Positions 3,161 through 21,003 of a stretch of DNA of 33,913 bases are shown here, in pieces (within the stretch, counting starts at the first letter, position 1; each line of letters starts with the position of its first letter). Below the pieces are notes generated by a model. That model was not told the DNA's origin, did not search any database, and saw nothing but the letters and a program-made list of their open reading frames with translations. The position numbers and the translations under genes are program-made. The DNA comes from Methanobrevibacter thaueri (GTDB taxonomy: Archaea > Methanobacteriota > Methanobacteria > Methanobacteriales > Methanobacteriaceae): NCBI GenBank assembly GCA_015062925.1, contig SUTL01000014.1, positions 1 through 33,913 of the forward strand. Direction: 5' to 3'.

Positions 3161-4408
3161 ATGCAACTTGTAGCTGATGTTGGAGGAATACCTGGAAAAG
3201 ACTGCAATGGATTTTGTAAATATTGCTACTTTAGAAAGGTAAAAGAAATAAAAAGTTTCGGATGTGCACACTGCCTACCCAATAAAATAGGATGTGAAAG
3301 ATGCAGTAAAGGAATATCTGAAACACAAGGAGCATTCAAATCTCCATTTGAAGTAATGAACGAAGTTCAAACCGCCCTAATGATGAATATGGGTCAGAAA
3401 AATGTAAGTGCATATATCAGTGGAGGAGGAGACATAAGCTGCTACCCCCACCTTGAAACATTAACCGCAAACCTAAATCAATTCTCAATACCATCCACAC
3501 TAGGATACACATGCGGAAAAGGAATAACAGATTCACAAATCGCTACAAGATTAATAAACAATGGAGTTGAAGAAGTATCTTTCACAATCTTCTCATCAAA
3601 CCCACAACTAAGAAAAGAATGGGTAAAAGACCCAAACCCACAAGAAGCATTAAAAGCATGTCAAATATTCTGCGAAAACATTAAACTAACAGGAGCATCA
3701 GTTATAATACCTGGAGTTAATGATGGTGAAATATTAAGACAAACATGTAACAGTTTAGAAGAATGGGGGGCAAAAGGAATGCTTTTAATGAGATTTGCAA
3801 ACACATTCAACGAAGGCCTGATACTTGGAAACGAACCCATACTAAAAGGTATTGAATCACAACCAATCGAAGAATTCTCAGAACTTGTAAAACAAATCAA
3901 CTCAGAATACAAATTCAGAGTAAGCGGAACACCATTATGTGACCCTGAAACCGGAGGACCATTTGCAATAGCAAAAGATGAAAATGAAATATTCCTACAA
4001 TTCATAAAACCAGTAACCGGAGAAGCAACAATAATCACATCAAAAATAGCTTACCCATTTATTTCCAAAATATTCGATAAACTGGAAGTTGAAAGTGTAA
4101 ATGTAATAGGTGTTGAAAAAGAAATCGCATGTTTAATTACAAAAGAAGATTTGGAAAATATAGATTTAACTGAAATCCATGATGCCGTAATCATACCCGG
4201 CAGATCATTTGTCCATCAACTGGACGCTGAAAGAATATTAAGTCGTGACGGTGTTGAAAGAATCGTAGGCCGTGGTCCAGATACTTTAAGTGTTGATGGA
4301 GAATTAAGTATTGATATGACAGATGAAAATGTTATAGAACGAGAATTAGAACAATTCAATGATTTAGTGGATGCTATTAATTTCTTTGGAATGAGAAGAA
4401 AAATTTAG
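3161..4408 (+). CDS. mmp10: Methanogenesis marker protein 10, radical SAM/B12-type protein implicated in Mcr arginine methylation
   Basis: Radical SAM motif CNGFCKYC followed by a Cys-rich [16 protein letters not shown] segment, characteristic of Mmp10; divergent from the mcr operon. Confidence 0.92.
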
Positions 4409-16314: not shown

Positions 16315-17415
16315 ATGACATCAAATTTAACTAAAAAAGATATTCTCCATATATTAAATTCAAAAAAAAGCGACATAATAAAATTTATGAACGAAACCGC
16401 AAAATATAGGGAGAATAATCTAATTACTTATTCTAAAAATATTTTCATACCATTAACCGAAATCTGCAAAAACGACTGTGGATATTGTAATTTTAAAAAA
16501 AACCCTAATGATCCACATGCAATAATTTTAAAAACAAAAAAAGAAATATTGGAAAGTTTAAAAGAAGCTGAAAAATATGGTTGTAAAGAAGCCATGTTTG
16601 CTTTTGGTGAAGATGCAGATGAAGAAGCAATTGTTCGAGAAAAACTAGCTGAATACGGATATGACTCAATGACTGATTATGTGTGTGATGTTTGTCAAAT
16701 GACTTTAGATGAAACAACACTCCTACCCCATACTAATGGTGGAAATTATTCATATGAAGATTTGAAAAAACTTAAAGAAGTTAATGCATCTATGGGTTTG
16801 ATGCTTGAAAATTCATCTGAAAGGTTAATGGACTTGCCAGCTCATAAAAAAAGTCCCGGTAAACATCCGAAAACTAGAATTGAAACAATTGCTAATGCAG
16901 GTAAACTTAAAATCCCTTATACTACTGGAATATTAATTGGAATTGGTGAGACAAAAGAAGAAATTGCCGAATCATTATTAAAAATTAGAGAGTTATATGA
17001 TGAATATGGTCATATTCAGGAGGTTATTATTCAGAATTTCACACCAATACCAGGTATTGAAATGGAAAATTCTCCTGAACCGAGTTTTTTAGATATGATT
17101 AGAACTGTTATTGCCGGATGTTTAGTGTTTAAAGACACTGATGTTAGTATACAGGTGCCTCCGAATTTAAATAATGATACTGCTCAGATATTTTTATTAT
17201 GTGGTGCTGATGATTGGGGTGGTGTTTCACCGGTGACTCCTGATTTTGTTAATATAACTTCTCCTTGGCCGGGAATTGATGAGCTTGAAAATTTAACAAC
17301 TGATGCTGGTTTTAATTTAGTTGAAAGATTATGTGTTTATGATAAATATATTAATCCTGAATGGTTAAATGAATATATACTGGAAAAAATTACTAATATA
17401 TCCGAGCATCAATAA
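16315..17415 (+). CDS. cofG: 7,8-didemethyl-8-hydroxy-5-deazariboflavin synthase subunit CofG (F420 biosynthesis)
   Basis: Radical SAM motif EICKNDCGYCNF; SLGLM-like ENSSERL and KHPKTRIETIANAGKLKIPYTTGILIGIGET. Confidence 0.95.
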   Translation: MTSNLTKKDILHILNSKKSDIIKFMNETAKYRENNLITYSKNIFIPLTEICKNDCGYCNFKKNPNDPHAIILKTKKEILESLKEAEKYGCKEAMFAFGEDADEEAIVREKLAEYGYDSMTDYVCDVCQMTLDETTLLPHTNGGNYSYEDLKKLKEVNASMGLMLENSSERLMDLPAHKKSPGKHPKTRIETIANAGKLKIPYTTGILIGIGETKEEIAESLLKIRELYDEYGHIQEVIIQNFTPIPGIEMENSPEPSFLDMIRTVIAGCLVFKDTDVSIQVPPNLNNDTAQIFLLCGADDWGGVSPVTPDFVNITSPWPGIDELENLTTDAGFNLVERLCVYDKYINPEWLNEYILEKITNISEHQ

Positions 17416-18121
17416 CTACATGCTCTACACCAGGAGCATATTTTTTAATTTTATTTATTTTAATTAATTCTACTTCACGATTATTTGCCTGGGAGATTAT
17501 TCTTTCAATAGGTCTTGTTTTCATTAGTTTTTCTGGAACTGTTTCATGATAATGTAAAATTCCTCCTTTGTTTAAACTGTTTATTGCTGTTTTCAGATAA
17601 TGGTGTGTTGTTTTAACATATCCCATTATAATTCTATCAGCTTTATATTTGGGAGTGATTTGCATGCAGTCCCCGAGAACTGGTGTTATGTTTGTTATTT
17701 TATTCAGTTTTATGTTTTCACATAAAAAATGATATGAATTCGGGTTGATTTCTATTGAAATTACTTTTTTGGGATTTGCATGAACCCCTATTGGGATGGA
17801 GAAATAACCTATTCCTGCAAACATATCTATTATTGTTTCATTATCAGTTACTTGTTTTGCTATTCTTAATCTTTCATTATTATTTCCTTTTGACCACATT
17901 ACTTTGGATAAATCTAATTTAAATAAACATCCGTTTTCTTTATTTATTGTTTCTGTTTCATTCCCATAGAGTATTTTATACACTGGTTCTCTTTTGGTTC
18001 CTTGAATATGATCTATTTCCATTATTGTTTTTACTTTATGTTTTGTGGAAAGTTCTTTATAGTCCTGATTTGGATATTGTTTATCTAAGATTAAAATATC
18101 GCCTATTTTTTTATATTTCAT
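17393..18121 (-). CDS. Trm5/TYW2-superfamily methyltransferase fold protein, probably Taw2 (wyosine-derivative synthesis)
   Basis: SAM-binding region IIDMFAGIGYFSIPIGVHANPKKVISIEINPNSYHFL, then RIIMGYVKTTHHYL and HYHETVPEK rather than the Trm5-type NLP motif. Confidence 0.85.
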   Translation of the reverse strand: MKYKKIGDILILDKQYPNQDYKELSTKHKVKTIMEIDHIQGTKREPVYKILYGNETETINKENGCLFKLDLSKVMWSKGNNNERLRIAKQVTDNETIIDMFAGIGYFSIPIGVHANPKKVISIEINPNSYHFLCENIKLNKITNITPVLGDCMQITPKYKADRIIMGYVKTTHHYLKTAINSLNKGGILHYHETVPEKLMKTRPIERIISQANNREVELIKINKIKKYAPGVEHVVIDARIY

Positions 18122-18274
18122 TTTATTATTACCTCATGAAAGAAAAACTTTATATATTTTAATAGCTAATATTTATATTGTTAGTTTTATACTAAAATAT
18201 ATTGATTCTGATTTTAAATAAATTAATTTAAATTTTGTTATAAACCTATAAGTAGTATGAATAATTATATTGTT

Positions 18275-18301
18275 TTAAATACTTATACGAGGTGTATTTA
18301 A
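18275..18301 (+). promoter_or_regulatory. Inverted repeat bracketing the psmB Shine-Dalgarno
   Basis: TTAAATAC-TTATACGAGGT-GTATTTAA directly before the psmB ATG; SD GAGGTG lies at the loop/3' arm boundary. Confidence 0.35.
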
Positions 18302-18919
18302 ATGGATGATAAAATATTAGAAGGTACAACTACCGTTGGAATTACTTGTAAAGACGGTGTTGTATTTGCAAGCGAAAGAAGAGCAAGTATGGGAAACCTT
18401 GTTGCTCATAAAGTAGCAGAAAAAATATTTAAAATTGATGATCACATTGTAACAACCATTGCAGGTTCTGTTGGAGATGCTCAAAGTTTAATGAAAGTTA
18501 TTGAAGCAGAAGTTTCCTTATATCAAATGAGAAATAATGATACTATTAGTGTTAAAGCAGCTGCATCATTAACTGCTAATATCTTACGTTCAGGACCAAT
18601 GTATGTTCAAACATTACTTGGTGGAATGGATGGTGATAAACCGTCTCTTTACTCACTTGACCCTGCAGGTGGTATGATTGGAGATACTTATATCTCAACT
18701 GGATCTGGTTCCATCGTAGCTTACGGTGTACTTGAAGATAGATTCAGAGATGATTTAACAACTGACGAAGGAATTGAAATAGCCATAAGAGCTATTAGAG
18801 CTGCTGCTGAACGTGACACTTATTCCGGAAATGGATATTTAGTTGCTAAAGTGGATAAAAACGGCTTTGAAATGTTAGATAATGAAAAAATTAATAAAAT
18901 TCTTAAAAAAATAAAGTAA
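18302..18919 (+). CDS. psmB: 20S proteasome beta subunit
   Basis: MDDKILEG|TTTVGITCKDGVVFASERRASMGNLV with G|T processing site and catalytic Thr; SGSGSIVAYGVLED. Confidence 0.97.
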   Translation: MDDKILEGTTTVGITCKDGVVFASERRASMGNLVAHKVAEKIFKIDDHIVTTIAGSVGDAQSLMKVIEAEVSLYQMRNNDTISVKAAASLTANILRSGPMYVQTLLGGMDGDKPSLYSLDPAGGMIGDTYISTGSGSIVAYGVLEDRFRDDLTTDEGIEIAIRAIRAAAERDTYSGNGYLVAKVDKNGFEMLDNEKINKILKKIK

Positions 18920-18961
18920 AAACTAATTTTTCATAAACTAACTATTTTTTCATATACAATA

Positions 18962-19027
18962 GTGTAGATAGTTTAGGGAATTTAACTAATTATAGCGAAA
19001 AAGCTTTCGTAAACTATTTTCCTACAC
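18962..19027 (+). promoter_or_regulatory. Structured leader upstream of aCPSF1
   Basis: GTGTAG-ATAGTTTA pairs with TAAACTAT-(TTTC)-CTACAC; inner hairpin CGAAA-AAGC-TTTCG; then C-TTTTTTT and SD GAAGGG. Confidence 0.5.
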
Positions 19028-19049
19028 AAACTTTTTTTGAAGGGATTAT

Positions 19050-20963
19050 ATGACTTCAGACATTTTAGATGAAATTAAAAAAGAAATTTTAGGCAAACTG
19101 CCAGATGAAATTCAGGTTTCTAAAGTAGAATTTGAAGGACCTGAAGTGGTGGTTTACACTAAAAATCCAGAAATAATTACTGAAAATGGTGATCTTATAC
19201 GGTCACTTGCAAAAGAACTTAGAAAAAGAATTATTATTAGATCTGACAAAAGTGCTTTACTTGAACCAGAAGACACTATAAATAAAATTCATGAAATTGT
19301 TCCTGAAGGAGCTGAAATTACTGATATTTACTTTGACACAGTTACCTGTGAAGTGGTGATTACTGCGAAAAAACCAGGACTTGTTATTGGAAAATATGGA
19401 GCAACATCAAGAACTATTGTTAAAAATACTGGATGGGCACCTAAAATATTAAGAACCCCACCTATTAGTTCAGATATTATTGGAAAAATTAGAACTATTC
19501 AGAAAAATAGTAGTAAAGATAGGAAGAAATTATTGCAGAAATTAGGACGTCAAATTCACCAAGGAAGTAAATATCCTAATGATTGGGCTAGAGTTACTTC
19601 AATGGGAGGATTCAAGGAAGTTGGACGTTCATCAATGTTACTTCAAACACCTAACAGTCGGGTGTTACTTGATTGTGGTGTTAATGTTGCTGCATCAGAT
19701 AATAAAAATGCATTTCCTATGTTGAATGCACCGGAATTTTCAATTGAAGAATTGGATGCAGTTATCATTTCTCATGCTCATTTAGATCATTGCGGATTTG
19801 TACCTTATCTTTTCCATTATGGATATGATGGACCAGTTTACTGTACAACTCCAACCAGAGATTTAACCACACTTTTACAATTTGATCATTTGGATATTGC
19901 ACATAGAGAGGGAAATCCTTTACCATTCACATCTAAAAATGTGAAACAGCAAATTAAAAATACAATTACTTTAGATTATGGTGAAGTAACTGATATTTCA
20001 CCGGATATTAGATTAACATTACATAATGCAGGTCATATTTTAGGTTCTGCAATTTCCCATATGCATATTGGAGATGGAGCTTATAATTTAGTATATACTG
20101 GAGATTTTAAATATGAACCATCCAGATTACTTGAACCTGCAACTATTCGTTTTCCACGTGCTGAAACTGTAATTATGGAAAGTACTTATGGTGGAAGAGA
20201 AGATGTTCAACCTTCCAGGAATAATGCTGAAAAAGAAATGATGAAAACAATTTATAAAACTCTTAAACGTGGTGGAAAAGTTTTAGTTCCTGTATTTGCT
20301 GTGGGAAGGGCACAGGAGTTAATGGTTGTGCTTGAAGAGTATATGAGACATGGTATGATTGAAGAAGTACCGATTTATATTGATGGAATGATTTGGGAAG
20401 CAACTGCTATCCACACTGCAAGACCAGAGTATTTAAGTAAGGATTTAAGAGATCAAATTTTCCATATGGGAAGAAATCCTTTTGTCTCAGAAATGTTTGA
20501 AAAAGTTCAAAATCGTGATCAGAGAAAAGAAATTGTTGAATCAAAACAACCTGCAATCATCTTATCCACTTCAGGAATGTTAACTGGTGGAAACTCTGTA
20601 GAATACTTTAAATGGTTATGTGAAGATGAAAGAAACACTCTTATATTTGTAGGATATCAGTCTGAAGGTTCTATGGGTAGAAGAGTTCAGAAAGGTTGGA
20701 AAGAAATTCCACTCGAAGATGATGATGGAAGAACCAGACAATTCTATGTTAAAATGCAAATTAAAACAATTAATGGATTTAGTGGTCATTCTAATAGAAG
20801 ACAATTAATGGAATATGTTAAAAGACTTAATCCAAGACCTGAAAAGGTTATTACTTGTCATGGAGACCCATATAAAGCTGTTGATTTAGCCTCATCAATT
20901 CATAGAAGTTATAAAATTGAGACTAAAACTCCAATTAATTTAGATTGTGTGAGAATACATTAA
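19050..20963 (+). CDS. KH-domain beta-CASP ribonuclease aCPSF1 (archaeal CPSF/FttA-type termination factor)
   Basis: N-terminal KH region, metallo-beta-lactamase motif SHAHLDHCG, beta-CASP motifs [35 protein letters not shown]. Confidence 0.96.
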
Positions 20964-20991
20964 GGAAAAATTAAATATCATATTGAACAAA

Positions 20992-21003
20992 ACTATTAAT
21001 AGT
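20992..21003. promoter_or_regulatory. Palindrome overlapping the putative purM promoter
   Basis: ACTATTAATAGT, perfect 12-bp palindrome abutting TATAAAT, ending 24 nt before the purM start. Confidence 0.35.

Follow-up and report, generated by a model that had tools for sequence, protein, structure and literature searches.

A conserved hairpin and U-tract at the Shine-Dalgarno sequence of aCPSF1 (FttA) in the Methanobacteriales: a candidate autoregulatory RNA element

In Escherichia coli, the general termination factor Rho terminates transcription in its own leader, a mechanism known as rho leader attenuation. The 5' UTR of E. coli rne is likewise reported to give feedback on its product, RNase E (PMC10989929). 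In the archaeon Methanococcus maripaludis, the termination factor aCPSF1 binds the U-tracts of terminators with its KH domains, and termination depends on its nuclease activity; archaeal terminators are described as functioning without a hairpin (PMC8716108). PolyU sites within operons of this organism reduce output of the gene that follows, an effect that depends on aCPSF1 (PMC10450193). How the level of such an essential general termination factor is controlled in archaea is not described in the papers we found, and our search, which covered the main text of openly available papers, returned no report of FttA autoregulation. Here we describe a conserved RNA structure and U-tract in the leader of aCPSF1 (FttA) that may provide such control.

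A covarying hairpin in the genus

The window, by which we mean the whole 33,913-nt stretch of DNA analysed, comes from a Methanobrevibacter-type genome of 2.16 Mb in 153 contigs. The proteasome gene psmB precedes aCPSF1 here (Table 1), and the same neighbour stands upstream of aCPSF1 at almost every locus of the order at which it could be checked; this synteny, together with the covariation of both hairpin arms, suggests that the two genes share one transcript. The spacer between these co-directional genes carries two U-tracts. The second, a genus-conserved U7, starts after a 4-nt linker from helix P1 and touches GAAGGGAT, which is followed by the ATG. Although GAAGGGAT matches the 16S tail more poorly than the GAAGTGAT of other genera, it is near-invariant in the genus. 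The 83 nt at 18958-19040 fold with -17.4 kcal/mol (z -2.57), and the 75 nt preceding the U-tract with z -4.0.

Table 1. Annotated features around the psmB-aCPSF1 spacer, in window positions
Feature	Position	Strand	Remarks
psmB, proteasome beta subunit	18302..18919	+	TIGR03634 247 bits, above curated cut-off; upstream of and co-directional with aCPSF1
Upstream block TTTTTCATAaACTAACTATTTTTTcATATA	18927..18956	+	column identity mostly 0.98-1.00 in 60 genomes
P1 5' arm GTGTAG	18962..18967	+	partner 19022-19027
P2 5' arm ATAGTTTAGGGAA	18968..18980	+	partner 19005-19017, one mismatch in this genome
Conserved apical single strand ACTAATTATAGC	18985..18996	+	column identity mostly 0.90-1.00
P2 3' arm	19005..19017	+	partner 18968-18980
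P1 3' arm CTACAC	19022..19027	+	partner 18962-18967
Second U-tract, U7 (UUUUUUU)	19032..19038	+	genus-conserved; proposed FttA site
GAAGGGAT, Shine-Dalgarno (SD) position of aCPSF1	19039..19046	+	GAAGTGAT in most other genera
aCPSF1/FttA coding region	19050..20963	+	TIGR03675 1001 bits, above curated cut-off; ATG 19050

A gene for aCPSF1 was detected in 66 of the 67 same-genus genomes, one of these by a weak paralogue match only, and the spacer was extracted from 63. Its length is 123-140 nt in all but one of the 63 leaders, and nearly all of them follow a common plan: TTTTTCATAACTAACTATTTTTTTATATAA, the P1/P2 hairpin, the apex ACTAATTATAGC and then ACTTTTTTTGAAGGGATTAT ahead of the ATG. The exception in length, L024 (G052; 3380-3620, minus strand), keeps the U-tract and SD and is without the upstream block and most of the 5' arms, which may reflect a natural variant or an assembly fault. 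Another leader, L107, is strongly diverged; its base helix GTGTAAAT/ATTTGCAC, read by eye, is retained.

Applied to a MAFFT alignment of 27 sequences, RNAalifold gives P1/P2 unprompted. Two-sided cells number 23 in this alignment, which is free of bias towards the model, against 7.2 when shuffled. A 61-sequence alignment built with covariance model R1 leans towards structure because it was fitted to that model; 96.7% of its cells are paired, and compensatory changes are present across Methanobrevibacter, with two-sided changes in 10 of the 19 pairs. Two-sided cells in this alignment number 51 against 15.8 shuffled (0/500) and further pair types 28 against 19.3 (0/500), figures that are not probabilities since the shuffles do not keep relatedness. 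Within P2, 8 of the 13 pairs have two-sided changes in the genus, and sliding the partner by 1-3 columns as a control left pairing of only 27-60%. With the closing pair excluded, G-U/U-G combinations occur 51 times and A-C/C-A 6 times; this large excess of G-U identifies the selected molecule as the plus-strand transcript. An RNA structure is under selection here.

The first-pass annotation of this DNA had proposed the hairpin, and its placement of GTGTAG/CTACAC, of ATAGTTTA (18968-18975) with TAAACTAT (19010-19017) and of T7 is correct throughout. The hairpin is real and covaries far beyond chance, and its second helix reaches further inward than had been claimed. A further proposal, that the 5' arm has a competing partner upstream in TAAACTA (18934-18940) and AACTAT (18940-18945), again correctly placed, fared differently. 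Across 61 genomes the shared arm paired with its own downstream arm at -11.3 against -9.5 kcal/mol and beat all 2000 permutations, whereas with its own upstream block it paired no better than with that of other species, 1086 of 2000 permutations being as good. The downstream duplex was at least as strong as the upstream one in 59 of the 61. A two-state attenuator or riboswitch with mutually exclusive helices is rejected as a covarying structure on these figures (1086/2000 upstream, 0/2000 downstream). The upstream block does pair with the shared arm better than shuffled sequence (-8.0 against -4.4), and an invariant alternative partner keeps some residual possibility, to which covariation lends no support. 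The supposed diverged direct repeats AACTATTTTTTC/AACTATTTTCC are peculiar to this sequence, because 19018-19022 is variable in the genus.

The covariance model finds one strong site per genome, ahead of aCPSF1, in 62 of the 67 same-genus genomes; its other matches in the genus are two weak ones (E 0.29 and 0.82) and one antisense on an element itself. Genomes without a match include the one with the diverged leader (G062, L107) and those in which the aCPSF1 copy is cut or missing. Having a single strong site per genome, the element is essentially gene-specific and resembles the rho and rne type in being a conserved RNA structure confined to the leader of its own gene. At E up to 1, Rfam 15 gave no match in 17000-21000, and two structured-RNA surveys do not mention FttA autoregulation in their main text.

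The U-tract and hairpin across the order

Leaders from 20 genera (g1 to g20, g20 being a class-level relative) were compared. Among the genomes concerned, we take G007 to be M. smithii, G089 M. ruminantium, G127 Methanosphaera stadtmanae and G148 M. thermautotrophicus. In 18 of the 20 genera, 4-9 T stand just ahead of the aCPSF1 SD, typically as CTATTTTTTCGAAGTGAT, and the tract is at least 5 long except in a few g9 members and g20; spacer length ranges from 38 to about 700 nt. Ordinary genes carry T6 or more at a comparable position in 3.1% of cases in a Methanobrevibacter-like genome (G008) and 1.4% in a Methanothermobacter-like one (G150), and T5 or more in 7.4% and 3.9%, respectively. The overlap of U-tract and SD is conserved order-wide. 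The tract is missing in g10 (L124, L212) and in g12 (L142-L147; Methanosphaera type, with a GAGAGTGAT leader), and these two genera offer natural test cases for loss of the proposed control. In G150, U-runs adjoin the SD in the psmB leader too (L195 16239; TTTTTTATTATTTTTACTCGAGGTG).

These data bear on the reading that the hairpin together with the U-tract is a fixed terminator inside the operon, which would set the 3' end of the psmB mRNA, protect this mRNA from 3'-5' decay by means of the hairpin and hold the psmB:aCPSF1 ratio constant with no meaningful feedback. Internal polyU termination sites do occur in 38% of M. maripaludis operons (PMC10450193), and the spacer here carries two U-tracts; however, across spacer lengths from 38 to about 700 nt the U-tract stays on the SD and not near psmB, a position unneeded for a psmB 3' end, and any aCPSF1-dependent terminator at this site would feed back on aCPSF1 anyway. 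We consider a fixed terminator rather unlikely. If some other protein or a ligand bound the apex ACUAAUUAUAGC to control translation or stability, and the U-tract gave the ribosome an accessible landing site, this would account for an apex motif that is conserved though unpaired, possibly a candidate protein-binding site, and for a U-tract that adjoins the SD. Yet the apex, which ranges from a few to 581 nt, is not common to other genera, whereas the U-tract is, and few other genes have a U-tract by the SD, so that this explanation seems to us distinctly improbable.

The hairpin itself recurs with other letters. In g9 (M. ruminantium type; L211 = G089, L125-L127, L200-L209) both helices are present as GUAUA(A/GA)-UAGUAUAUG ... 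CAUAUGCUA-AU-UUUAUAC and enclose an apex of 81-581 nt, and member L208 shows a double compensation, UAGUAUAAG/CUUAUACUA. A simple one-arm search of the long leaders did not find the structure; the two-helix search used instead, which did not recover the g9 structure in L210, gives P1 of the AUGUGUA/UACACAU type in g3, g7 and g8 and illustrates these helices but does not test them, because its arms are chosen by complementarity. Long leaders, of about 460-550 nt, occur in g8 as well. Methanothermobacter-like genomes, whose spacer is only 69-72 nt, have a compact hairpin CAGUAAAC/GUUUACUG with z -5.3 to -6.8. Among 358 SD-bearing genes sampled from one such genome, with one of the sampled blocks chosen so as to include aCPSF1, a U-tract adjoins the SD in 15, and the lowest hairpin z of these 15 (-4.73) belongs to aCPSF1. 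Folding energy by itself says little in several A+T-rich genera (z +1 to -1.8 in g2, g4-g6 and g14-g18), and folding found no clear hairpin in g2, g6 and g18 despite their U-tract.

Conserved more strongly in the genus than the hairpin itself is the block ahead of it, TTTTTCATAACTAACTATTTTTTTATATAA (18927-18957), which holds the first U-tract (18945-18950) and a TATA-like ATATAc (18952-18957) and could be a promoter, a psmB terminator or an RNA-binding site. The TATA-like ATATAA sits 3-8 nt ahead of the hairpin and may place a start site within it, in which case the 5' arm would be absent from the main transcript. It might be supposed that the block is mainly a promoter, with transcription starting within an inverted repeat that serves as a DNA operator. 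The near-invariant TTTTTTTATATAA directly ahead of the repeat would agree with this, and transcription beginning some 25 nt further on would start within the P2 arm or apex. But compensatory changes that pass through G-U, with few A-C mismatches, are those of plus-strand RNA and not of DNA, the g9 arms lie far apart, and the Methanothermobacter-like spacer is very short. We regard the reading as a whole as very unlikely, and its DNA operator is rejected on the G-U/A-C asymmetry and the g9 arm distance. Selection of both arms in RNA requires psmB read-through or a start upstream of 18962; a promoter may nevertheless coexist with the RNA element and yield a second, shorter transcript from ATATAA.

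A model of FttA feedback and its known counterparts

The first-pass annotation had suspected a structured, U-rich, attenuator-like element ahead of aCPSF1, and it is borne out by the conservation, the compensatory changes, the single-gene specificity and the order-wide overlap of U-tract and SD, a pattern that, on sequence grounds, would fit autoregulation well. Since the U-tract lies between the hairpin and the SD of aCPSF1, and the protein binds U-tracts, negative feedback is the simplest reading, and by analogy with U-tract binding by M. maripaludis aCPSF1 (PMC8716108) the arrangement suggests that FttA acts on its own leader and lowers its own expression. We judge the chances to be about even that the psmB-aCPSF1 spacer is an intercistronic attenuator at which FttA terminates or masks its own message. 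Such an attenuator would operate on RNA that continues from psmB or that begins upstream of 18962. P1 and P2 would fold into a hairpin ending 4 nt ahead of the U-tract that abuts the SD, and FttA would act on this U-tract via its KH domains, with the outcome that the transcript is terminated or cleaved ahead of the coding region or the SD is covered. Abundant FttA would reduce how much aCPSF1 message is made or translated, and with little FttA present RNA polymerase would read through. Possible roles of the hairpin are to keep the U-tract exposed, to make RNA polymerase pause, to shield the psmB 3' end or to bring in a protein that binds the conserved apex. We infer that FttA is the ligand and negative feedback the outcome, the step being termination, cleavage or a translation block. 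Counted against the attenuator are the ATATAA near the hairpin, the lack of a clear hairpin in g2, g6 and g18 and of a U-tract in g10 and g12, and also the view that archaeal terminators need no hairpin (PMC8716108).

On this evidence we see the case as evenly poised that the leader represents an undescribed archaeal family of cis-regulatory RNA, through which FttA/aCPSF1 would control its own synthesis by a hairpin-gated U-tract terminator at its own SD, retained across the Methanobacteriales as an independent counterpart of rho autoregulation. It would also link FttA to a conserved structured RNA, though archaeal termination is described as requiring no hairpin. The element provides a specific candidate feedback loop that is open to experiment, in organisms that probably include Methanobrevibacter smithii and Methanothermobacter thermautotrophicus, and the leader is a ready substrate for in vitro work.

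Compared with a bacterial intrinsic terminator, the element shares the order of hairpin and then U-run; it differs in its A+U-rich, interrupted stem and in the 4-11 nt between stem and U-run. A pattern scan of 18100-19200 for such a terminator found no G+C-rich stem with a U-run directly after it. Like the aCPSF1-dependent internal operon termination sites (ioTTS) of M. maripaludis (PMC10450193), the leader has polyU between co-directional genes, where aCPSF1-dependent lowering of the downstream gene would be expected. Unlike in the ioTTS, it is aCPSF1 itself that lies downstream, with a U-tract that abuts its SD and a conserved, covarying hairpin ahead of the tract; termination at this site is proposed. 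In function, the element comes nearest to the rho leader and the rne 5' UTR of E. coli, and it is homologous to neither. It would share with the rho leader the principle that a general termination factor holds down its own production by way of its leader, here with a U-tract and hairpin in place of a C-rich Rho site and with a feedback that is proposed. As in the rne 5' UTR (PMC10989929), the structured leader belongs to a ribonuclease gene; FttA, however, is a beta-CASP nuclease of termination, and its feedback on aCPSF1 is a proposal.
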